A stretch of DNA of 21,482 bases from positions 1-21,482 of the IMG/VR virus record IMGVR_UViG_3300048928_000204; one strand, 5' to 3'. Source of the DNA: a virus. Positions 1,126-13,853 of the stretch are shown one piece after another. A model generated the notes under the pieces. That model worked only from the letters and a program-made list of their open reading frames with translations, ran no database searches and was not told the DNA's origin. Every line of letters starts with the position of its first letter. The first letter of the stretch is position 1. A program made the translations under genes and the position numbers.

Positions 1126-4100
1126 TTACCAGTTGTATCTGACACCCAGCCCTCCCTGAGTGTCGCTGTACCCATTATCACCCACCTGCTGCGCCACATT
1201 GCCCCACACCGCAAAACGTGGAGTTATCTGGCCTTCCACTCCCAGCTTCACCTCCCCTGCGTTTTTAGTGCCGCTCAGGCTGTTGCTAACATCATCCATC
1301 CTTACCCGGGCATCACGGGTATTGTGCAGCCAATTCGCTTCAACAAAGGACCGGAATTCACGGTCTTTACCGTCATCAATGGCATTATGACCGCTGATGT
1401 AGGCCTTCATACCCAACCGGGTTTGGAGGTTCCCGCGACCATCATCCGTTACGCGCGTACCGTTCTTCTCCTGGTGGTCGTCTGCCTGTATGTCCATCCA
1501 CACCGCCTGCGCCTGCGGCTGCAGCCAGTAACTGTTACGGCCGCTCTCACCCAGCTTAATGCTGTAACCCGTTTCCACTGAGGCTGTCACGCCGGAAGAT
1601 TTATATTTTTCCGTTGCCTGCTCCTGACCCGACACTGTGTTGTCAAACCAGTTATAAAGCGCCCAGGTGTCTACATACAGACCGGTTTTATCCTCATCAT
1701 TGGCATACCAAGTGCCGTACAAACCCGCGCTATATCCACTGACCAGTCCGCGGGAGCGGTATCCCGTCAGGTCCGACACGGTCCGGCTCTGACTGCGCGC
1801 ATAGCCCCCCATGACGCCAAGGTGCCAGCGGTCAGTGTCGTTGGTGTTCCACTGCACCAGGTCAGCGCCGAGCTGCATGACATAGCGATTTGCCTGCGTT
1901 TTCAGTTGCCCGGAATCGTCACGGGAACGGGTGTGTCCGCCTACGTTACGCAACCACAGGCTGGTGACTCTCTGCTCACCGGTCAGCGCGTCCGTGTACC
2001 GGGTCTCTCCCGGACGGTCATCCAGGCGGGTCATGAACAGCGTGTTCGCCGCCCGGCTATTGGCAAGATAGCTTCCCGACTCGGGACGGAGTTGTGCTTC
2101 CGGCTCGGTCTCTTCAGTCTGACTACTCAGATACCAGTTACCAGAGTTCTGATCATTACCGCGTAAGAGGTTGTAATCATAAGCTCCGGCCACAATACGC
2201 CCACTCTGAACAAAATCACCGTCAGAAGTACCATTAACATGGATAATCTCTATACCTTCCAGCGTTTGTGCACCATTACCGCCAGCGTTACTGACGCTGA
2301 CGTAGGTTGTTCCTCTGGTATCACCGTTCACTGTCATACGATCTGTCAGAGAGGTATCGTCTCCCAGCACACTACTGAACGCCAGGTGTCCGTTGTCACC
2401 CACGTAATCACCATTCACGGTCAGACTGTTACCCGGCTGGCTGTCACTGCCTGTCCCACTTATTCGTACTAAGCCTTTGTTCACCAAGTCGCCGTTAATG
2501 GTAAGGTTGGCCTGCGTGGTTGTGGAAAGGGTGTTCATCGCTGTCGTCTGCGAGGAGCCTTCCATCACCGGCGTACCTACTTGCAAGACACCCTGGTTAT
2601 TCACATTCCCGGCAATAATACCGTTGCCCGCCAGTAACCCCGCGTCATGGACAGTCACTTGCGATGAGGCCAGTGAAACTGTATTCCCCTGTTCGCCGAA
2701 GACTAGGGCACCGCCGAAAATATCCGTAGCGCCGGTATACGCCACGCTATCCGTACCCAGCGTCACCCAACCACTACCGTATTTCTCGATGCTACCAGCA
2801 CCGGTGATGCGGTTGTTTATCTGCCAGCTATCATCTGCGGAAAGTATCACCCGACCGGCGTTTTTAATGGTCGCCTCACCGGGCTGATCTGCTGCCGTTA
2901 CCATCAGGCTGCTATTACCATCCACATCGAAGCTACCGCTGAAGCCCGTATTATCACTCGCCAGCTGTACCTGACTGGCGCTGAGTGCCAGCGAACCGCT
3001 ACCACTCAGGCTATTCTTGAACACGCCTTCAGCCCCATTCAGATTCACCCGACCAGCCAGGACCATCGCACCGCCACCCAGGCCCTGCACATCATTCAGG
3101 TCTGCCGTGGCGTCTTGCGCTACCGTGATGCCGGCATCCAGTGTGTGGTTCGCACCTTCCACATTAAGGACGCCATCGATCAGGGTCAGACTGCCGTTCC
3201 CGGTCAGTTCCCCGGTGATACTGCCACCATGAGTAATCTCCAGATGACCGCCGTCGAGGTTCACTTGCGCATCCTCCTCAATGCTCACGCTGCCCACAGT
3301 CTGGTGGTGACCATTCATCTCAAGGACGGTACCCTGTGACATCTGCAAAAGCGATGTGGCTCCCAGAACGCCGTCATTCTGCATTAGCAGAGTGCCGCTG
3401 CGGATATCTGTGGTACCAGTGTAATTATTCTCCAGATTCGACAAAGACACCGTATTCCCCGTGCCGGTGTCAATCGCCAGATCTCCGTTGCCGATAAGCA
3501 CTGCACTCAAGTCTGCGGCGTTGCCGGTACGACCCTCACTGTTAAGCAGCAGCGCATCGCTGCCCTGACCCAGCAGTTCCACCTGCGTCAGACCGTAGTT
3601 AATATAAAGTCCGTCATGACCATCGCCGCCGGTCAGACGGTAGTCCCAGGTGCCCTGCGCTACGGTATTACCATTCTGAAGAATATATGCTGTTGCACCA
3701 CCATTACTGATGGCACCGCCGTTCTGATCGGTCAGCGTCAGGTTACCACCGCTGCCGGTGACGCTGCCTTCAGTGGAGACCAGTTGTACCAGAATATTGC
3801 CTTCATCCTGCGCCAGCAGGGGGACGGATGTATCCGGTATTGGCGTGTCATTGCTCACGGAACCGGCGGTGGTGATCTGAACAGTACCGCTGCCGGAGAT
3901 ATCCAGCTGTCCGGTCGTATGTATTGAATTCTCCGCGGTGGTCTGTCCCGGCGTGACGGCCCCCATGACCAGCATACCGCCGTCAAAAGTTAGTCCGTTA
4001 ATGGTCTGTTGCCCGTCTCCCACGCTTGCCACGCTGCCGCTGCCGAGCTTAAGCAGGGTGTTACTCAGCGCATCCATATTCGTTCCGGCTAGCGAAAACA

Positions 4101-5970
4101 GGGTGTCCTTCAAGGCCAGAACGCCACTGAAGTTGTCAGTTAAGGAAGCGGAGACAAAATCAAACTGGTTACCGGTGGTGTCAACCTCAAGCGTGCCGTA
4201 ACCGTTCAGTATGTTGATAAACTGCCAGTTCTGCGTGGCATCAATCGCAAGCGTACCACCAGTCATAGTGACATCGTTTGTGCCAATATTGTTCTGTGCT
4301 GAAATGAGCAGAGTGGCGGGTGAATCAATATTAACATCACCCTGGAAAGCAGAATTATTGCCGGTCAACGCTGATATGCCGCTTAAGGCGTTCACCGTGC
4401 CGGAACCACTGATAGCAGCGTCCAGCTCAAAGTCAGTACTGGTGTGATTTAGCGTCAGCACACCAGTTCCGGCTCCGAAAATAATCTTCCGTGCGTCAAT
4501 GTTCCCGGCAGCAACCGCTGCATTACCGTCCAGGGCACCAACAGCCAGTTCGCCAACAGAGCCGGTATTACGGGCGACAGTGACATCCCTCGGAGTACTG
4601 ATCAAGGCATCATTACTGATGGCCAGACTGCCTTTCCCGCTGTAACCAACATCAAGGGAATCAGTACTGACTGTGGCACCATTATTAATGCTCAGACTGC
4701 CTTCACCATTAAAGCCAACAGTTAAATTACTGGTGCTGCTCCACCCGGAATTCGCACCAGTAACTTCTACCGCACCGATTGAGCCAGCATTATGTCCGAT
4801 ATAGCTGAAAGAGTTGCTGACAGTAGCGCCATTACTGACGGTCAGATGCCCTTCTCCGCTGTGACCAACATAGATATAAGAGGAGTTCCATCCGGAACCC
4901 GCACCAGTGACTTCTGCCGTACCGATTGAACCAGTATTATATCCAACGGCGCCAGTAGAGTTGCTGGTGACAGTTGCACCGTCACTAACAGTAAGGCGGC
5001 CTTCTCCACCAGAGCCCACATGCAGAGATGATAATTCCCAGGTGGAACCCCTACCGGTAACCTCCACAGTGCCGGTCGAGTCCACCTTGTTTCCGATAGT
5101 GCCTCCACTAGTGGTGATTGTGGCGCCATCGCTGATGGTCAGGTGGCCTTCCCCGGATTCACCAATACTAAAAGTCGAAGTACTATTCCATCGAGATCCT
5201 GCTCCAGTAACCGTCACGGCCCCGTTCGATCCTGCAGAGTTTCCGATGTAGCTGATAGTGTTGCTGGCTGTGGCTCCATCTCTGATAGTCAGATGACCTT
5301 CTCCGAGATAACCAACATAGAGATATGCACCGTTCCAGTCAGAACCTGTACCAGTGAATTCAGCCGTACCGGTTGAACCGGAACTGTATCCAATATAGGT
5401 GCTGCCGAAACCGCTGGCCGTGGCCCCCTCACTGAGAGTAAAACTGCCATTCCCCTTAGCACCAACATAAAGAGACCCAACACCATTCCAGCTGGAACCT
5501 GCACCAGTAATCGTCACCGTACCAGTTGTGCCCACAGAGTTTGCGATATAGTTATAGGCGGTAGTACCGGTGTTGCTGACCGTTGCACCCTCACTGATAG
5601 CAAGATGACCATCACCATTGTAACCGACATAGATACCGTTGCCGTTGCTCCAACTCGAGCCTGCACCAATAACCTCCACAGTACCAATTGAGCCCGCAGA
5701 GTATCCGATGTAGTCATAGGCATTAGAGGCTGTTCTCGTGTTCACGACTGAACCGCCGTTAATAATTCTCAATGTGCCATTGATGTATAACGGGTCAGTC
5801 ATACTCCACTCAGGGAGTGAACCTGTACCATCTACTGTGGTAGTGGTATCCGGATCAATAGTGGCCGCATCAACGACATTTGATCTGGTCAGACACAGCA
5901 CCACCAACGTAGCTATCTTCGTCAATCGGCTAGGATGACAGATAAAACTAGCAGGATTGCTATATTTCAT
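1126..5970 (-). CDS. AIDA-type autotransporter adhesin (type Va secretion)
   Basis: A type V secreted surface protein of 1614 residues from the chosen start (numbering below uses the longer 1633-residue frame from 6027). I chose the internal ATG at 5970 because it follows GAAGAGACC and gives a normal signal peptide: basic SRLTK, hydrophobic IATLVVLCL, cleavage near VDA/A (about 54). Residues ~79-498 hold about eight ~50-residue repeats (YVGxxGEGHLTISDGATVSN, then IGxxAGSxGxVxVTGAGSxW), the T5SS/PEP-CTERM-associated strand-loop-strand type. Residues ~500-1330 form a long beta-helix with passenger-associated repeats such as NNYTGTTDIRSGTL and VAYTGATDIFGGAL. The beta-barrel starts near LWLRNVGG (about 1357) and ends GLGVRYNW, with the expected terminal aromatic residue. 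I see no cysteine after the signal peptide. It is probably an adhesin or biofilm factor; the ligand is unknown. It lies between the tail fibre gene and the prophage end, a cargo position. Confidence 0.93.
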   Translation of the reverse strand: MKYSNPASFICHPSRLTKIATLVVLCLTRSNVVDAATIDPDTTTTVDGTGSLPEWSMTDPLYINGTLRIINGGSVVNTRTASNAYDYIGYSAGSIGTVEVIGAGSSWSNGNGIYVGYNGDGHLAISEGATVSNTGTTAYNYIANSVGTTGTVTITGAGSSWNGVGSLYVGAKGNGSFTLSEGATASGFGSTYIGYSSGSTGTAEFTGTGSDWNGAYLYVGYLGEGHLTIRDGATASNTISYIGNSAGSNGAVTVTGAGSRWNSTSTFSIGESGEGHLTISDGATITTSGGTIGNKVDSTGTVEVTGRGSTWELSSLHVGSGGEGRLTVSDGATVTSNSTGAVGYNTGSIGTAEVTGAGSGWNSSYIYVGHSGEGHLTVSNGATVSNSFSYIGHNAGSIGAVEVTGANSGWSSTSNLTVGFNGEGSLSINNGATVSTDSLDVGYSGKGSLAISNDALISTPRDVTVARNTGSVGELAVGALDGNAAVAAGNIDARKIIFGAGTGVLTLNHTSTDFELDAAISGSGTVNALSGISALTGNNSAFQGDVNIDSPATLLISAQNNIGTNDVTMTGGTLAIDATQNWQFINILNGYGTLEVDTTGNQFDFVSASLTDNFSGVLALKDTLFSLAGTNMDALSNTLLKLGSGSVASVGDGQQTINGLTFDGGMLVMGAVTPGQTTAENSIHTTGQLDISGSGTVQITTAGSVSNDTPIPDTSVPLLAQDEGNILVQLVSTEGSVTGSGGNLTLTDQNGGAISNGGATAYILQNGNTVAQGTWDYRLTGGDGHDGLYINYGLTQVELLGQGSDALLLNSEGRTGNAADLSAVLIGNGDLAIDTGTGNTVSLSNLENNYTGTTDIRSGTLLMQNDGVLGATSLLQMSQGTVLEMNGHHQTVGSVSIEEDAQVNLDGGHLEITHGGSITGELTGNGSLTLIDGVLNVEGANHTLDAGITVAQDATADLNDVQGLGGGAMVLAGRVNLNGAEGVFKNSLSGSGSLALSASQVQLASDNTGFSGSFDVDGNSSLMVTAADQPGEATIKNAGRVILSADDSWQINNRITGAGSIEKYGSGWVTLGTDSVAYTGATDIFGGALVFGEQGNTVSLASSQVTVHDAGLLAGNGIIAGNVNNQGVLQVGTPVMEGSSQTTAMNTLSTTTQANLTINGDLVNKGLVRISGTGSDSQPGNSLTVNGDYVGDNGHLAFSSVLGDDTSLTDRMTVNGDTRGTTYVSVSNAGGNGAQTLEGIEIIHVNGTSDGDFVQSGRIVAGAYDYNLLRGNDQNSGNWYLSSQTEETEPEAQLRPESGSYLANSRAANTLFMTRLDDRPGETRYTDALTGEQRVTSLWLRNVGGHTRSRDDSGQLKTQANRYVMQLGADLVQWNTNDTDRWHLGVMGGYARSQSRTVSDLTGYRSRGLVSGYSAGLYGTWYANDEDKTGLYVDTWALYNWFDNTVSGQEQATEKYKSSGVTASVETGYSIKLGESGRNSYWLQPQAQAVWMDIQADDHQEKNGTRVTDDGRGNLQTRLGMKAYISGHNAIDDGKDREFRSFVEANWLHNTRDARVRMDDVSNSLSGTKNAGEVKLGVEGQITPRFAVWGNVAQQVGDNGYSDTQGGLGVRYNW
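4540..5793 (-). repeat. Tandem ~150-bp passenger repeats of the autotransporter
   Basis: About eight imperfect in-frame units of 49-54 codons. In 1633-residue numbering they run roughly 79-130, 131-184, 185-234, 235-284, 285-333, 334-383, 384-433 and a final degenerate 434-498. Each pairs a (L/I)xVGxxGxGxLxIxxGATxS half with an IGxxxGSxGxVxVTGAGSxW half. The protein spacing is well conserved but the units differ in sequence. Each would add rungs to a right-handed beta-helix stalk. Confidence 0.85.
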
Positions 5971-6027
5971 GTCGGTCTCTTCAATTAAATTATTGAGAAC
6001 AGATATCTTTCGATACTGTTGTTTCAT

Positions 6028-7862: not shown

Positions 7863-8810
7863 TCAATACATTGCGGGGATGATGGGAATACTCATTCCGG
7901 TATATCTCTCGCCGGTCACAGAATATTTGTCTGTCCATCGGGAACGGACACGGCCATTTCCACATTTTACCGAGTTCCCGCTCATCACCAGTCCCTTGGA
8001 TCGCATGTTGCACCACCCGCTGGCTGTTGAAGAGATGAAACCATAGGAGCCAAGCGCAATCATGCTGTTGCCAATATCGACCCAGCTATTGCCCGGTGAA
8101 TAAAACTGATTGCGGAATATAAATGGACGGCGGGTAGTGGAGAAAGTGCACTGGCCAGCAGCGTTGATGAAATTTAATCCTCTCCCCGGTACAGGTGCCT
8201 GAACCGCAAAAATTGCAATATCGACATTTACAGAACGGACAATATCGTCATAGCCCGTATAATCCTGCCGGGAGTAAATATTATTGCCATCACATTCAAG
8301 CGTAGCTGCGCTGTCATTCCAGCGTGCAAAAACGAGCCCTTTGGCCGGAAGCGTGTAAGTACCATTTACATTGACCGTCCCACTGAAAACACAGGAAGCA
8401 ACGCGGCTGACATCAGTGATCGCAATAAAGTCTGTCGAGTCCTCAATGAGCAAACCACGGTTTCCACTCTGCCCTGCCGGTAAAATCTGCCAGACTGTGC
8501 CGGGAAATGTTTTATCTTTCCCCCAACCATCTGATGACCAGACTCTCTGAGTCAGGGTTCCGTTGCCGTTATTGGTTATACCGTCAAGAACCATAATCGT
8601 TGTGATCAGATTCGGCGAGCGAGTCACATTCACAACCGAGTTTGATGGAATGAAAAATGGGGTCGCCCCGGCAACAAAGCCCTGAACAGTCATGGTCTGC
8701 TGGCCCCATGCCTCTACCGCCTCCCCGCCATACGACGGACATTTCATTCCGGCAGTGATGGTCATTGCGGGACGCCCGTCATTCAAATCAATATAAAGCC
8801 CCCTGGCCAT
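7863..8810 (-). CDS. DUF6453-like phage protein between J and the fibre
   Basis: A 315-residue protein that I place with the DUF6453-type proteins found after J in N15-like and other lambdoid phages; function is not established. It is rich in G, N, S and aromatic residues, with beta-rich spacing, no signal peptide and no membrane segment. This fits a virion protein at the tail tip or an adsorption protein. The ATG at 8810 overlaps the J stop (TGATG), and GGGAG lies eight bases upstream, so it is translationally coupled to J. A TTG one codon earlier is less likely. Six or so cysteines are scattered through it (for example SYGG preceded by KCP, and SGWCNM and VKCGNG near the end). A terminator follows directly. 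Confidence 0.7.
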   Translation of the reverse strand: MARGLYIDLNDGRPAMTITAGMKCPSYGGEAVEAWGQQTMTVQGFVAGATPFFIPSNSVVNVTRSPNLITTIMVLDGITNNGNGTLTQRVWSSDGWGKDKTFPGTVWQILPAGQSGNRGLLIEDSTDFIAITDVSRVASCVFSGTVNVNGTYTLPAKGLVFARWNDSAATLECDGNNIYSRQDYTGYDDIVRSVNVDIAIFAVQAPVPGRGLNFINAAGQCTFSTTRRPFIFRNQFYSPGNSWVDIGNSMIALGSYGFISSTASGWCNMRSKGLVMSGNSVKCGNGRVRSRWTDKYSVTGERYTGMSIPIIPAMY

Positions 8811-11800
8811 CAAAATTCTCCCAGAACAATGCGCCCGCCGTTCGACAAACTGACAGTGACACCGTTGTTATTGATCGTGACGCCTCCAGTTGAGTTGGTA
8901 AATCCAAACTGACCATTTTGGGCATAAACCCCGCCACGAACCGTCACATTATTGAATTCAGCAGAACCATTCTTGTTGATAGTCCAGCCTGCTGTGCCCG
9001 CACTGTAATTATTCGACTGAATGACATTGCCAATCTTGGCATTCGTGATCGTGCCATCCTGAATAAAACCTGAGCTGATAAAGACCTGACCATTAACTAC
9101 CGCGAAGGGTGAATACTGACTGTCACCGCTGCCGCTCATCAGAACGAACTGATTAGCGTTAAAGCCAACCCTGGTTATTACCGGTTTCCCTGCCTCCGCC
9201 AGAACGGCAATCGACATCCCTGCGTTGTACATTACGCCATTAATCCTGACCCCCGTTTTCAGCGTATAAATGGCTGATGCGCCGGTGGCGTCAACGACTG
9301 CAGTCAGCTTGTCTTCAAGAGCTGCCGTCACATCGTTAAACTGCGCCTGCACCTGGGTGGACATTTCAGCCATTGCCTTATCAACTTCAGCAATAGTCGT
9401 TTTTACAACCAGAATATCGGCACGCACTTCCCCGTATTGCGCCCACTGATGCTCAACTGTTCCGTGGTTCGCCAGGGCGTTCTGCAGAATTCCCTCAATG
9501 TTGGTATCGATGTCTCCAGTGAGGCGCTCCCCATCAGCAGAGGTAAGAAAATCGTCTGCTATATCCCCCAGATAATCATCGGCGTTATCGTTTGACATAC
9601 CCCTTACCCAGTCGGTATATCCGGACTCGTTACCTGTTCTGTCGACCAACTGCGCGCGGTACCAGAATTCCTGCCCGGCTTTAAGGCCGAGCTGGGTGTA
9701 TTCCGCAGATGGATAAGGCACGTCTGAGAGCAGGAGTGGATCCGAAAAGTCACTGTTGGCGGTATACTGAATTTCCGTTTTTAGCGTATCGCCAGTGTTT
9801 GCCGGGAAGCCCCAGTTAAGAAGAATGCCCCAGTTAATACCCGTGGCCGTGAATCCTACTGGCTTAGGTGGGTTTCCTACTTTGCCCGTCAGTGTCTTCT
9901 CTTCCGAATATCCCCATCCTGAGGAAATTTCAGCGGCATTGATAGCACGCACGCGCACCAGATAGCGTCCGGCGTAAATCCCCGGGACGTCGAATGACGT
10001 GGTGGAGCTGCGCGGCACGTTAACCCAGTTCCCGTCATTGCGGCGCCATTGCGCTTCATAGGCGATAGCGTTCTGCGCCTGGTCCCAGCTCACGCGCATG
10101 GTCTCAACGCTGATATTTTGCTGCACCACGGAAAACGAGCTGATCACGATGTTCGAAGGCGGCGACTGGTTACCCGGCGGGATCACACTCACCGGCCGCT
10201 GGTCAATGATGGCTCCGGTATCAATACGGTCATATTTATCCGGGTCGTGCCATGCGGCGGTAATCGAGAAAGTGCCATTATCGTTATCTGAAACGCTGAC
10301 AACACGATACTGCTGCGCGTAAAGCTCGTCAGATTCAACCACCCAAACAGCTTCGGTCTGTGGGGTCTCACTGTATGCAGTAGTGACTGTGACTGATTGG
10401 CCGTTCACAGCCTGAATGGTCCTGCTCTGCGACGCTCCGGAAGGTAGGTTGAGAATAAGGCGATCACCTGCTGCCGCATCTGCCACGCGGTCAAGTTTGA
10501 TAACGCGACCGTTAACGGCGCTGATGCGGCCTCCCATAACCTTTCCGGAAAGCAGTTCGTCAGCCACGGCGATGATGTAGCCCGGCTGTGGTATGTTTCC
10601 ATCCAGGCCGACATCGAACGAAACAACACGGTCTTTATTGTTGGTGAGGATGCCCCAGCGGCCTTTTCTGTTTGCTTCTGATTGCCGGGTGCATCCGATA
10701 GCCGTCATCTCCAGTTGATTAAAGCCGTAACGTGCCACCAGCGCCTGCTCAAATACGGGCTCCATCGCGTCAGCGTAGGCGTTATCCGGATCGGACCAGG
10801 ATACCAGCGCTGTGGTGTATCGGGTTTTAGTGGTGCTGCCCGAATAGGTGAAGCGACCGTCAATAACGTTCGCGCGCGTATAGCTGTAATCAACATCACG
10901 TGGCATGTCAGCCAGGGCAACGATCTGATCCCCGCCCCAGTAAGTCATGCCGCGGAAGATAGCGGCAAAATCACGCAACACAGTGTAAGCGTCGTTACGG
11001 TCCTGGATATAGACGTTGCAGGTATACCGTGGTTCAGTACCGCTTCCGCCTTTGCCGTCCGGTACCTGCTGATCGCAATACTGAGCCACCTGATACAACG
11101 TCCATTTATCGATGTTAGCCGCAGTAAGCCGGTTACCTAGGCCGAAACGATCGGTAACCACCAGATCGTAAAAAATCCACGCCGGGTTATCCGTCCATGC
11201 CCATTTAAACGCCCCGGTCCATGTACTGCTATAGGTTCGGGTTTCAGGGTCATAAGTATCAGGAACACGGATAACACGTCCGCGGGGCTCACAGGAGATC
11301 TGCGGGATTGAGCCGTTAAACTGGCTGGAGTCGAATTCAATGTACAGCAGCGCGGTGTTCGGATAGCGCAACTTGGCGTCGATCACCTCAGTGAAGCTCT
11401 GCAGTGTCATCGTGTCGCCAATCTTCGCGCTGTTAGCATCGGCTGTAACCTTACGCAGTCTGATAGTCCAGGTACTGCCAGCCTGAGGTAAATCAATTCG
11501 GTGGCTACGCTCGTAACCAGAGGTTGTTTTCCCGGTCACGCAGGTATTGAGTACCGTCTGCCATGTTCCACCGTCCGTCTGCAGGTCGATAGCATAGTTG
11601 ATCGAATAGCCGACCAAATCCCCGTCATCTTCCTGTTTAAACAGAGACGGCCATTTCAGACGCAGGCGTACTGCCGAGAGCTTGGTGTTAGTGAAAGTGC
11701 GTGTCCATGCGGTAACACTGGAAATTTCAGTACCCATGCTGATTTCGTTTTCGGTACCGGGAATACCCTGAATGTAATTTTGCGCCTGCGTTCCCGCGCG

Positions 11801-12039: not shown

Positions 12040-12063
12040 AAAAAAAGCCACCCGAAGGCGGCC
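12040..12063 (-). terminator. Intrinsic terminator between I and J
   Basis: On the minus strand GCCGCC (12062-12057) pairs with GGTGGC (12052-12047) with one G-T pair, closed by a TTCG tetraloop and followed by seven T (12046-12040). It lies in the 53-base gap between the I stop and the J start. J transcription therefore depends on antitermination or leakage. Confidence 0.7.
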
Positions 12064-12081
12064 TGAAAAAAGGTTTGTTAT

Positions 12082-12696
12082 CTACTGCTGATCTTCAACA
12101 TAAATTCCGGCAGAAATAATCGCTCCGCCGATTCGCCTGCGACCGTAGAGAAGTGGTACCGGGTAACCCTGAGCCGCGGTGTTTGTCACGCCACCGAAAG
12201 CGTATGATGCGCGGTTATCTGCACTCTGTTTGCTGGCCAGCCCGGTTGGCTGAGGAGAAAGCATTTGCACAACCCCGCCGACCATCATCGCCGCACCAAA
12301 TTGTGCGACACCATACCCGGCTGCAGATAACGTACCTGCTGAAAAATAGCCGACAGCCACCCCGACAACGACCAGCACTGCGCCAAGGATTGTTTGTAAT
12401 ACCCCCGCTTTTTTACTACCAATGATTACCGGAACGATGCGGATAACCTCACCGGTAACCGGAAAGCCAAGATCATCCTCACCAATGTTTCTTTTACCCT
12501 TAAATACAGAGTATGTAAGCCCGCGACGCTGGCTGGAAATCATAAACTGCTCAAATCCGGGAATGGTCTTCGCGAGTGCAACACCAGCCTCGCTCACACG
12601 GGAAATCAGGCGATGGTGAACTTTTCCAAACGTTTTACCAAGAACTCCGCCAAGTTCAATTCGACTCATAACCTCTTTCATACAATTTCCACACAT
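12082..12696 (-). CDS. I: Tail tip assembly protein I
   Basis: A 204-residue homologue of lambda gpI, needed for tail tip assembly. The N-terminal part has the usual ubiquitin-like layout. Residues ~105-150 hold two hydrophobic segments (TILGAVLVVVGVAVGYFSAG and GAAMMVGGVVQMLSP), and the family C-terminus is present (AQGYPVPLLYGRRRIGGAIIS). The start is uncertain. The first ATG (12696) lies directly in the T tract of a terminator without a proper ribosome site. ATG at 12681 has GGA six bases before it, and ATG at 12669 has GAGG very close. I favour 12681, which would remove MCGNC. It sits between the lipoprotein moron and J. Confidence 0.88.
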   Translation of the reverse strand: MCGNCMKEVMSRIELGGVLGKTFGKVHHRLISRVSEAGVALAKTIPGFEQFMISSQRRGLTYSVFKGKRNIGEDDLGFPVTGEVIRIVPVIIGSKKAGVLQTILGAVLVVVGVAVGYFSAGTLSAAGYGVAQFGAAMMVGGVVQMLSPQPTGLASKQSADNRASYAFGGVTNTAAQGYPVPLLYGRRRIGGAIISAGIYVEDQQ

Positions 12697-12718
12697 AAAA
12701 AAACCGCCGAAGCGGTTT
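12697..12718 (-). terminator. Intrinsic terminator of the lipoprotein moron
   Basis: On the minus strand AAACCGC (12718-12712) pairs perfectly with GCGGTTT (12707-12701) around a TTCG tetraloop, and further T's run to 12697. It begins six bases after the lipoprotein stop and ends at the first possible start of I. Confidence 0.88.
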
Positions 12719-12723
12719 AAATA

Positions 12724-13053
12724 TCAATTTTGTGCAGCTTTACCGCCGGTACACTGATATTCGACAGATACGTTGGACATAATACAACTCCCAAAACCAT
12801 CCATCTGTCCACACTGGCTAGTTTGTCCGCCAAAAGGTTCTGCACCTTCATATCCCCAAGTTTTACATTTTTGGGCGGCTAAAGATGCGGCTTGATTAAG
12901 GTCAACAACAGGCTTTTCAAATTGACCGACTGTATAACCCATTCTCACAGTACCATCGGCCTTGCTTCCCCCCATAGGGACCATTTCCTTTCGAACCGCG
13001 CAACCAGATAAAATCATGGTAGTTAAAACTATCAGGACTATTTTCTTCATCAT
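12724..13053 (-). CDS. YecR-like lipoprotein, phage moron
   Basis: A 109-residue predicted lipoprotein. MMKK, a hydrophobic stretch and the lipobox LSGC at 15-18 give a signal peptidase II site at C18. Alanine at the +2 position suggests outer-membrane sorting. The mature part resembles the YecR-like lipoprotein family: CKTWGYEGAEPFGG, then three more cysteines ending VEYQCTGG; the four could form two disulfides. Family function is not established. It lies between K and I, which are adjacent in lambda, and has its own extended -10 promoter upstream and a perfect terminator downstream. This fits a lysogen-expressed 'moron', like lambda bor, that modifies the cell envelope, possibly excluding other phages. 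AAGGG six bases before the first ATG supports the start. Confidence 0.85.
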   Translation of the reverse strand: MMKKIVLIVLTTMILSGCAVRKEMVPMGGSKADGTVRMGYTVGQFEKPVVDLNQAASLAAQKCKTWGYEGAEPFGGQTSQCGQMDGFGSCIMSNVSVEYQCTGGKAAQN

Positions 13054-13080
13054 TTATTTCCCTTAATTACAATCGGAAAT

Positions 13081-13108
13081 ATCTTAACACCATTCAATTT
13101 GGCTGCAA
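13081..13108 (-). promoter_or_regulatory. Candidate sigma-70 promoter of the lipoprotein moron
   Basis: On the minus strand TGTTAAGAT (13089-13081) is an extended -10 element (TGnTAAGAT, four of six matches in the hexamer). A weak -35, TTGCAG (13108-13103), lies 16 bases upstream. It sits in the 83-base gap between the K stop and the lipoprotein start, which is A+T rich compared with the tail genes on both sides. The gap is unexpected, because neighbouring tail genes abut or overlap. Confidence 0.5.
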
Positions 13109-13136: not shown

Positions 13137-13853
13137 TTAATACAGAAATAAATCTTTATAACGCAATAACTTAACTGTTCTTTCCTGCCAGTAACCGCCG
13201 TACGGCACACGCTGGCTCAGATGGCCGTACAGATGATGCAATAGCATATTGTCCTTAAGCAGGATCCCCGCATGATTCCACTTATCGGCCTGGACCTGCA
13301 TGATCACCATATCGCCAGGCCTCGGCGGTCCGTCGAATTCCCGGAAGCCGCACTCGTACCAGCAATCCTGATAAAAGTTGTCCGGATAATTGTTTTCCCA
13401 CCATGGGTAATCTACCCGGTAATCGTGCAACTCAATGCCGTGGTTTTGGCGGAAATAGCTCATGACCAGACCCCAGCAGTCAAAGTGACCAAGCACAAAC
13501 GGACGCTCCAGCAGCGGCAGTTCTCCGCGCGGCTGGATGGTACGTAAATCCCCCTCCGGCCAGCTCACGATGTGCCAGGGTAAAAGCGTTGCATCGCATT
13601 GCGCTTTATCCAGTTCGCTTGGTTGCGTCGTGGCATCAGGGTGACTGTGAGCGATGGCGATCACAGTTCCCCAGTCTTCAGCTGCTGCGTAATCTTCCGG
13701 ACAAAGCACAAAATTGTCCTCTGGCGCCGCTGCAAGATTACGGCACGGAAAATAACGTTCAACGCGGCTTTTCTGCGCCACGACGCCACAGCACTCACGA
13801 GGATATTCAGCTGCAGCATGCGCCATAATGGCATCAATGGTTTTCTGACGCAT
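13137..13853 (-). CDS. K: Tail tip assembly protein K (JAMM + NlpC/P60)
   Basis: A 238-residue homologue of lambda gpK with two enzyme-like domains. The N-terminal JAB/MPN domain has an intact JAMM signature: E20, H69-S-H71-P, S79 and D82, which normally bind zinc. The C-terminal NlpC/P60 cysteine peptidase domain begins near 115, with C126 in GHFDCWGLV, H194 in KWNHAGILL and a further H206/H207. In lambda it acts in tail tip assembly, and such domains may process tail proteins or cut peptidoglycan. The ATG lies one base after the L stop and AGGAG precedes it by six bases. All expected catalytic residues are present. Confidence 0.95.
   Translation of the reverse strand: MRQKTIDAIMAHAAAEYPRECCGVVAQKSRVERYFPCRNLAAAPEDNFVLCPEDYAAAEDWGTVIAIAHSHPDATTQPSELDKAQCDATLLPWHIVSWPEGDLRTIQPRGELPLLERPFVLGHFDCWGLVMSYFRQNHGIELHDYRVDYPWWENNYPDNFYQDCWYECGFREFDGPPRPGDMVIMQVQADKWNHAGILLKDNMLLHHLYGHLSQRVPYGGYWQERTVKLLRYKDLFLY

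Follow-up and report, generated by a model that had tools for sequence, protein, structure and literature searches.

Morons, among them morons between the tail genes K and I, and lipoproteins that exclude competing phages are already known. In phage lambda K and I are adjacent, and in HK022 the same position holds gp20, the K-I moron for which Juhala 2000 is reportedly the original paper. Lambda Bor is a lipoprotein expressed by the lysogen, and the lipoprotein Llp of phage T5 acts as a late-expressed shield. According to the report on the mEpimmI phages (PMC11893012), Lpp021 excludes mEp021 and mEp515, and Lpp010 excludes mEp010, mEp044, mEp554 and lambda. Two reports (PMC11756786, PMC12222027) describe the Salmonella lipoprotein YecR as a belt around the L ring, part of the LP ring, and in the first of these the yecR mutant still forms L rings. 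A yecR knock-out also belongs to the 57 Keio strains whose lambda plaques are altered (PMC2900299), which ties the YecR family to phage infection.

The stretch of DNA analysed here (the window) is a 21,482-base IMG/VR virus record. Its tail genes K (13137..13853, minus strand; JAB and NlpC/P60 by domain and profile matches) and I (12082..12696, minus strand; phrog_32, E 6.1e-72) are separated by 440 nt with 40% G+C, against 53% for the window, and sequence reading and scans delimit in this gap a unit of promoter, gene and terminator on the minus strand (13108..12697). The preliminary description had claimed a YecR-like lipoprotein gene, an extended -10 promoter and a UUCG-loop terminator at this place, and each was found there. 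The gene is a 109-aa ORF (12724..13053, minus strand) with the lipobox LSG-C as export signal, predicted lipidation at Cys18, Ala at +2 and four further Cys residues, which align among the mobile forms; it matched the YecR family PF13992 with E 3.3e-21 and 75.8 bits (cut-off 27). The terminator scan located AAACCGC-TTCG-GCGGTTT-TTTT, also written AAACCGC-TTCG-GCGGTTTTTTT, at 12697..12718 (minus strand), an intrinsic terminator with a 7-bp stem, a UUCG loop and a U-tract, whose stem-loop folds at -8.9 kcal/mol. An Rfam search of the window gave no matches.

Other features of the window, all on the minus strand, were recorded alongside. The I-J gap has a terminator as well (12064..12045), again with a UUCG-type loop and with no gene before it; it may be the scar of a lost insert, because the I-J region of HK022 is annotated with two morons. 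The DUF6453 protein encoded after J (7863..8813; phrog_1265, of the PHROGs class 'moron ... membrane protein') varies among relatives, and the C-terminal part of a 1633-aa ORF (1126..6027) matches the tail fibre proximal subunit phrog_15824.

The 83-nt leader of the lipoprotein gene was read by eye. It contains, on the minus strand, a -35 sequence TTGCAG (13103..13108) separated by a 16-nt spacer from an extended -10 (13081..13089; TG at 13089-13088, one free base, TAAGAT at 13086-13081), an inverted repeat also supported by leader comparison (13056..13080; ATTTCC at 13080-13075 and GGAAAT at 13061-13056) and the Shine-Dalgarno sequence AAGGGA (13059..13064); the predicted +1 would fall at about 13074. 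Taken alone, this promoter sequence is weak evidence, since 17% of dinucleotide shuffles of the leader contain a TGnTAnnnT, and 1.5% contain one whose TG is preceded by TTG at a distance of 14-17 nt. The -35 matches the consensus at only three of six positions, and a consensus promoter scan of the window missed the moron promoter. Comparison of leaders makes the case strong. Conservation was counted in 66 non-redundant leaders, with the TG outside the search pattern: the T of the extended -10 is present in 61 and the G in 64 leaders, and the bases of GGAAA, likewise not forced by the pattern, in 60, 64, 58, 62 and 60. At the 16-nt spacer, the -35 TTG is conserved in 49, 52 and 42 of 63 leaders, and at least four of six -35 positions match in 33 of the 63, against 8.9 in shuffles. 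The nhmmer profile of this module matched the window at 13091..13053 with E 8.7e-9, the window leader itself being part of the profile, from which L030 was excluded.

The predicted first transcribed bases of most such leaders are the near palindrome GATTGCAATC, and the window copy (13074..13065) is degenerate, GATTGTAATT. An RcsAB box, an FNR box, a sigma-E and a FliA site are what we presume to be candidate readings of TARGATGTTTCC or GATTGCAATC. Inspection by eye spoke against a leader peptide, which was rejected because the window copy reads ATA in place of ATG.

To place the unit among its relatives, we turned to the two slots in which yecR occurs. A protein scan of viral contigs gave 30 loci, with yecR between K and I in most of them. 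In L026 and L034 it occupies the H-M slot, ahead of M, and there K and I overlap or are separated by 26 nt; it also precedes M in L033, which ends inside K, and in L035, where the K match is cut off, and L031 and L032 are other phages. The K-I slot itself was surveyed in the best 80 of 572 confirmed relatives (K at least 94% identical), of which 79 had an I gene. An insert of at least 150 nt was present in 64 of these 79 K-I slots (a redundant set, with 59 distinct inserts), compared with none of 77 M-L and none of 79 L-K junctions. The slot was empty in the other 15, K and I overlapping by 28-31 nt in five and lying 32-33 nt apart in ten. The earlier claim of an insertion between two genes adjacent in lambda therefore holds with respect to these relatives; for lambda itself the adjacency is general background. 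Only six of the 79 slots carry yecR and the remaining non-empty ones hold other inserts, of many unrelated families; this is contrary to what had been named as grounds for abandoning the moron reading, namely that every relative keeps the same gene in the K-I slot.

Lipoproteins are frequent among these inserts. A strict test, which misses for example the LFGC of L048, found a lipoprotein ORF in 48 of the 64 K-I inserts and in none of them on the reverse strand. Among 68 loci with both slots readable, the lipoprotein was placed in K-I only in 38, in H-M only in nine, in both in one and in neither in 20 (Fisher p 0.0014, kinship ignored); in the sole locus with both, L120, the K-I call is perhaps a chance lipobox. 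Of the 63 K-I inserts that contain an ORF, 56 have a terminator after the last one; mononucleotide shuffles, summed over families, would yield about 0.6. The terminator that had been proposed as a sign of a moron is consequently real but weak evidence when taken alone, because K-I inserts devoid of a promoter, and the gene-less I-J gap, also carry one. The wider architecture proposed in the preliminary description is nonetheless borne out by variable presence between genes that are adjacent in relatives, a second slot, a promoter conserved across leaders, an own terminator and a foreign base composition. Judged by these features, the unit is very probably a moron with its own transcription.

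The leader of yecR, over about 45 nt, is alike across very different contexts. A viral scan with the exact core motif TARGATRTTTCYGATTG matched at least 120 stretches, and in 105 of the 120 listed a lipobox ORF begins some tens of bases further downstream; in the one member displayed per cluster, for six clusters, the start codon is 36 nt from the motif start. The mature parts of the 105 listed lipoproteins fall into six families, with 64, 16, 12, 6, 5 and 2 members. The reversed motif, used as a control, matched 14 viral stretches and no lipoprotein, a number similar to the 15 unattached matches of the real motif. Between representatives of seven families, 84% of the leader is shared and only 27% of gene nucleotides 61-120, and BLAST of the mature proteins between these families gave nothing better than E 0.17. 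By these comparisons, the module is common to at least seven lipoprotein families with unrelated mature parts. The signal peptide may belong to it as well, although over the first 48 nt of the gene the module families agree with one another only a little better (57%) than controls do (49%).

A longer pattern searched in genome contigs gave 39 matches, of which 14 are in Enterobacterales by our reading of the genus names. Thirteen of these 14 precede lipoproteins, the fourteenth sitting near a locus end, and none of the 25 elsewhere does so. Within 295 genomes of one family, the longer pattern occurs in 12, once each, and 15 of 16 phage records have one module match each at up to one mismatch, the record of L026 having none and the backward control none. 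Searches of E. coli genomes gave no DNA match to the window gene or to the L122 leader. The module also precedes the lipoprotein of the H-M slot in L056, L071, L074, L092, L094, L099 and L100; the K-I slot is empty in five of these loci, and L071 and L100 have K-I inserts with no lipoprotein call. It adjoins cI in PhiR26_1, and phages of Salmonella, Klebsiella and Cronobacter have it ahead of the tape-measure gene or of other tail genes. In phages 9NA and SP069 (L242, 1500-1545; L247, 1500-1544), a leader-like palindrome TGTTAAACT..GTTTGATTGCAATCAAAC stands before the major tail protein gene, not before a lipoprotein. The leader of a 2.1-kb plasmid shows a fainter likeness, and its kinship is not firm, given an nhmmer E of 0.58.

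Protection from read-through RNA of the IS10 type is known, and the module resembles it in its inverted repeat, whose arms lie ahead of the predicted +1 and at the ribosome site. Pairing is possible in the module family between TTTCY, which precedes the predicted +1, and GGAAA, which overlaps the ribosome site. Compared with shuffled upstream sequence, the natural one made the Shine-Dalgarno sequence less accessible in 61 of 68 copies, and this sequence was freer in the own transcript than in read-through RNA in 60 of 68, counts that are not independent, since the sequences are related. The model suggests that read-through mRNA would be silent and mRNA from the own promoter free in the module family as a whole. 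The window copy differs from IS10 in this respect: its values are reversed (0.35 in the own transcript, 0.49 in read-through RNA), so that hiding of its ribosome site in read-through RNA is not predicted. A contrasting pattern was seen in most K-I lipoproteins of other families (L052, L044, L048, L063, L081 and others), which start 23-33 nt after the K stop codon and whose ribosome sites are covered by hairpins of changing sequence (CCTTTTG..CAAAGGGG, CCTCTTG..CAAGGGG, CCTTTG..CAAAGG); this suggests translational coupling to K, or insulation. Taking module and slots together, we tentatively propose a portable cassette of Enterobacterales phages for outer-membrane lipoproteins, composed of the -35 TTG, 16 bp, TGnTARGAT, TTTCYGATTGYAA, GGAAA and ATG. 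It would receive at least seven swapped mature domains, place one surface lipoprotein per lambda-like tail operon in the K-I or the H-M slot and, through the repeat present in many copies, limit translation to its own transcript. This is a possibility that we hold well short of even confidence.

An AlphaFold2 model built with ten window and IMG/VR sequences reached a pLDDT of 82.7. In a Foldseek search, its only PDB match below 1e-3 was Salmonella LP-ring YecR, 7bgl_1 (E 4.6e-5, target-normalised TM 0.89, rmsd 1.5, 24% identity), and phmmer matched the 7bgl chain with E 2.9e-6. YecR matches were found in 82 of 295 genomes; eight are 52-68% identical to the window protein and the rest 23-39%, with four genomes carrying both kinds. 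The tree unites 12 chromosomal rows in a clade (96/100) with a long branch; the window and the phage and plasmid rows fall outside it, and these mobile rows are not resolved as one clade because the deep forks elsewhere are weak. Identity and tree both set the moron YecR apart, as a subfamily, from the chromosomal, flagellar-type YecR. Beside two chromosomal yecR copies, our ORF reading placed a ferritin-like gene.

Other mobile elements carry homologues too. Those on 2.1-kb plasmids of Salmonella, Shigella and Klebsiella are 71-73% identical to the window protein; these plasmids (loci L037, 1-2109, and L040) are circular, and the genes listed in the one that was opened are the YecR lipoprotein and one hypothetical protein only. 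A 5-kb Klebsiella plasmid also carries a YecR gene, and larger plasmids do so in Xanthomonas (44%) and E. coli (33%). Two phages labelled Synechococcus have a homologue at 50.5%. In BPP-1, bbp28 (L005, 4995-5351) encodes a YecR-like lipoprotein (39%) alone on the opposite strand, between the endonuclease/terminase cluster and the primase, and from this setting it is, in our reading, an independent moron.

On balance, we consider it somewhat probable that the unit is a self-contained moron making an outer-membrane lipoprotein in the lysogen, most likely one that alters the host envelope and probably hinders competing phages. A sigma-70 promoter (-35 TTGCAG, extended -10 TGTTAAGAT) would drive a short mRNA ending at the UUCG terminator; the YecR-fold lipoprotein would be lipidated at Cys18 and, having Ala at +2, sent to the outer membrane. 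Since the promoter has no recognised repressor or antitermination element and the unit has its own terminator, transcription from the prophage would be steady, and the lysogen would carry a foreign outer-membrane lipoprotein that most likely disturbs the adsorption of competing phages or the entry of their DNA. We rate the chances that exclusion is the moron's main benefit as about even; its best support comes from other lipoproteins of phage structural clusters, for which exclusion has been shown (PMC11893012). Among solved structures the closest relative is no exclusion factor but the belt protein of the flagellar L ring, and PADLOC found no defence match in the window. Furthermore, J has five different C-terminal ends across the window and seven loci with 99-100% identical YecR, so YecR does not seem tuned to one J end. 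This is weak evidence against a co-tuning of YecR with J and lends no support to receptor blocking, and the last ~50 residues of J are perhaps not the receptor-binding part.

Homology bears on another reading, in which the phage YecR acts like its chromosomal counterpart, around the flagellar L ring or by sealing the outer membrane, and alters motility or the entry of phages that use the flagellum. The phmmer and Foldseek matches to 7bgl, the Salmonella belt and the altered plaques of the Keio knock-out all fit this proposal. The moron-type protein, however, belongs to the separate subfamily described above, and the Salmonella mutant still builds its L rings (PMC11756786). Klebsiella pneumoniae is a species without flagella, and a 71% relative is found on its small plasmids. 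A flagellar role seems to us unlikely, if still worth keeping in mind.

The position of the gene, within the late tail operon near J, would suit a late-expressed shield of the Llp kind, a lipoprotein coating the lysing cell and its debris and sparing new virions from old envelopes. The K-I lipoproteins from other families, with a hairpin hiding the Shine-Dalgarno sequence and no room for a promoter, fit such K-coupled expression. Set against this are the 83-nt leader of the window gene with its conserved promoter, the terminator, the module beside cI in PhiR26_1 and before tape-measure or tail genes elsewhere, and the plasmids that bear the gene with no tail operon. We regard a late shield as rather improbable, less so only than the two readings that follow. 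Serum resistance or another benefit at the host surface, with no exclusion of phages, has its precedent in Bor, to which annotation assigns serum resistance; the module is missing from the bor leader, so that bor was rejected as a module member, and we give this reading little credence. A minor role in tail structure or assembly, suggested by the position within the tail operon, is highly improbable, given that 73 of the 79 K-I slots (best 80 of 572 relatives) lack yecR, which also occurs in the H-M slot and on plasmids and encodes an export signal.

The open-access literature that we searched contained nothing on YecR as a phage moron, on a shared lipoprotein leader or on the two-slot pattern, and within that literature these three appear to be new. 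Morons and exclusion lipoproteins have so far been found singly; the conserved leader offers a sequence handle, independent of protein family, for hundreds of prophages, and would predict which lipoprotein morons are on in lysogens. If the portable cassette is real, it could guide the search for undiscovered phage-exclusion lipoproteins. Additionally, a flagellar L-ring family is here tied to very small plasmids and to phages, which makes it possible to test for what reason YecR travels on mobile elements.

Compared with the systems already described, the window protein is closest to YecR itself (PF13992, 7bgl), with which it shares the lipobox, the mature domain and the fold (TM 0.89); it differs in being borne by phages and plasmids, in its own promoter module and in its separate subfamily, the chromosomal form being reported to bind the L ring and, in E. 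coli, to be under FlhDC control. The resemblance to HK022 gp20 and other K-I morons, annotated 'moron gene product', lies in the shared slot, whereas those products are shorter and, by annotation, unrelated to the window protein. Cor (phrog_1119) is likewise a lipoprotein moron, annotated for superinfection exclusion, but the match of the window protein to it (E 0.004) is confined to residues 2-21, the signal peptide. Lpp021 and Lpp010 can be likened to the window protein by description and gene position, as small lipoproteins in the structural cluster of temperate coliphages (PMC11893012). The module profile found no match on their stretches, and the two genes differ from the window unit in lying after J on the opposite strand, in phages where K and I overlap.
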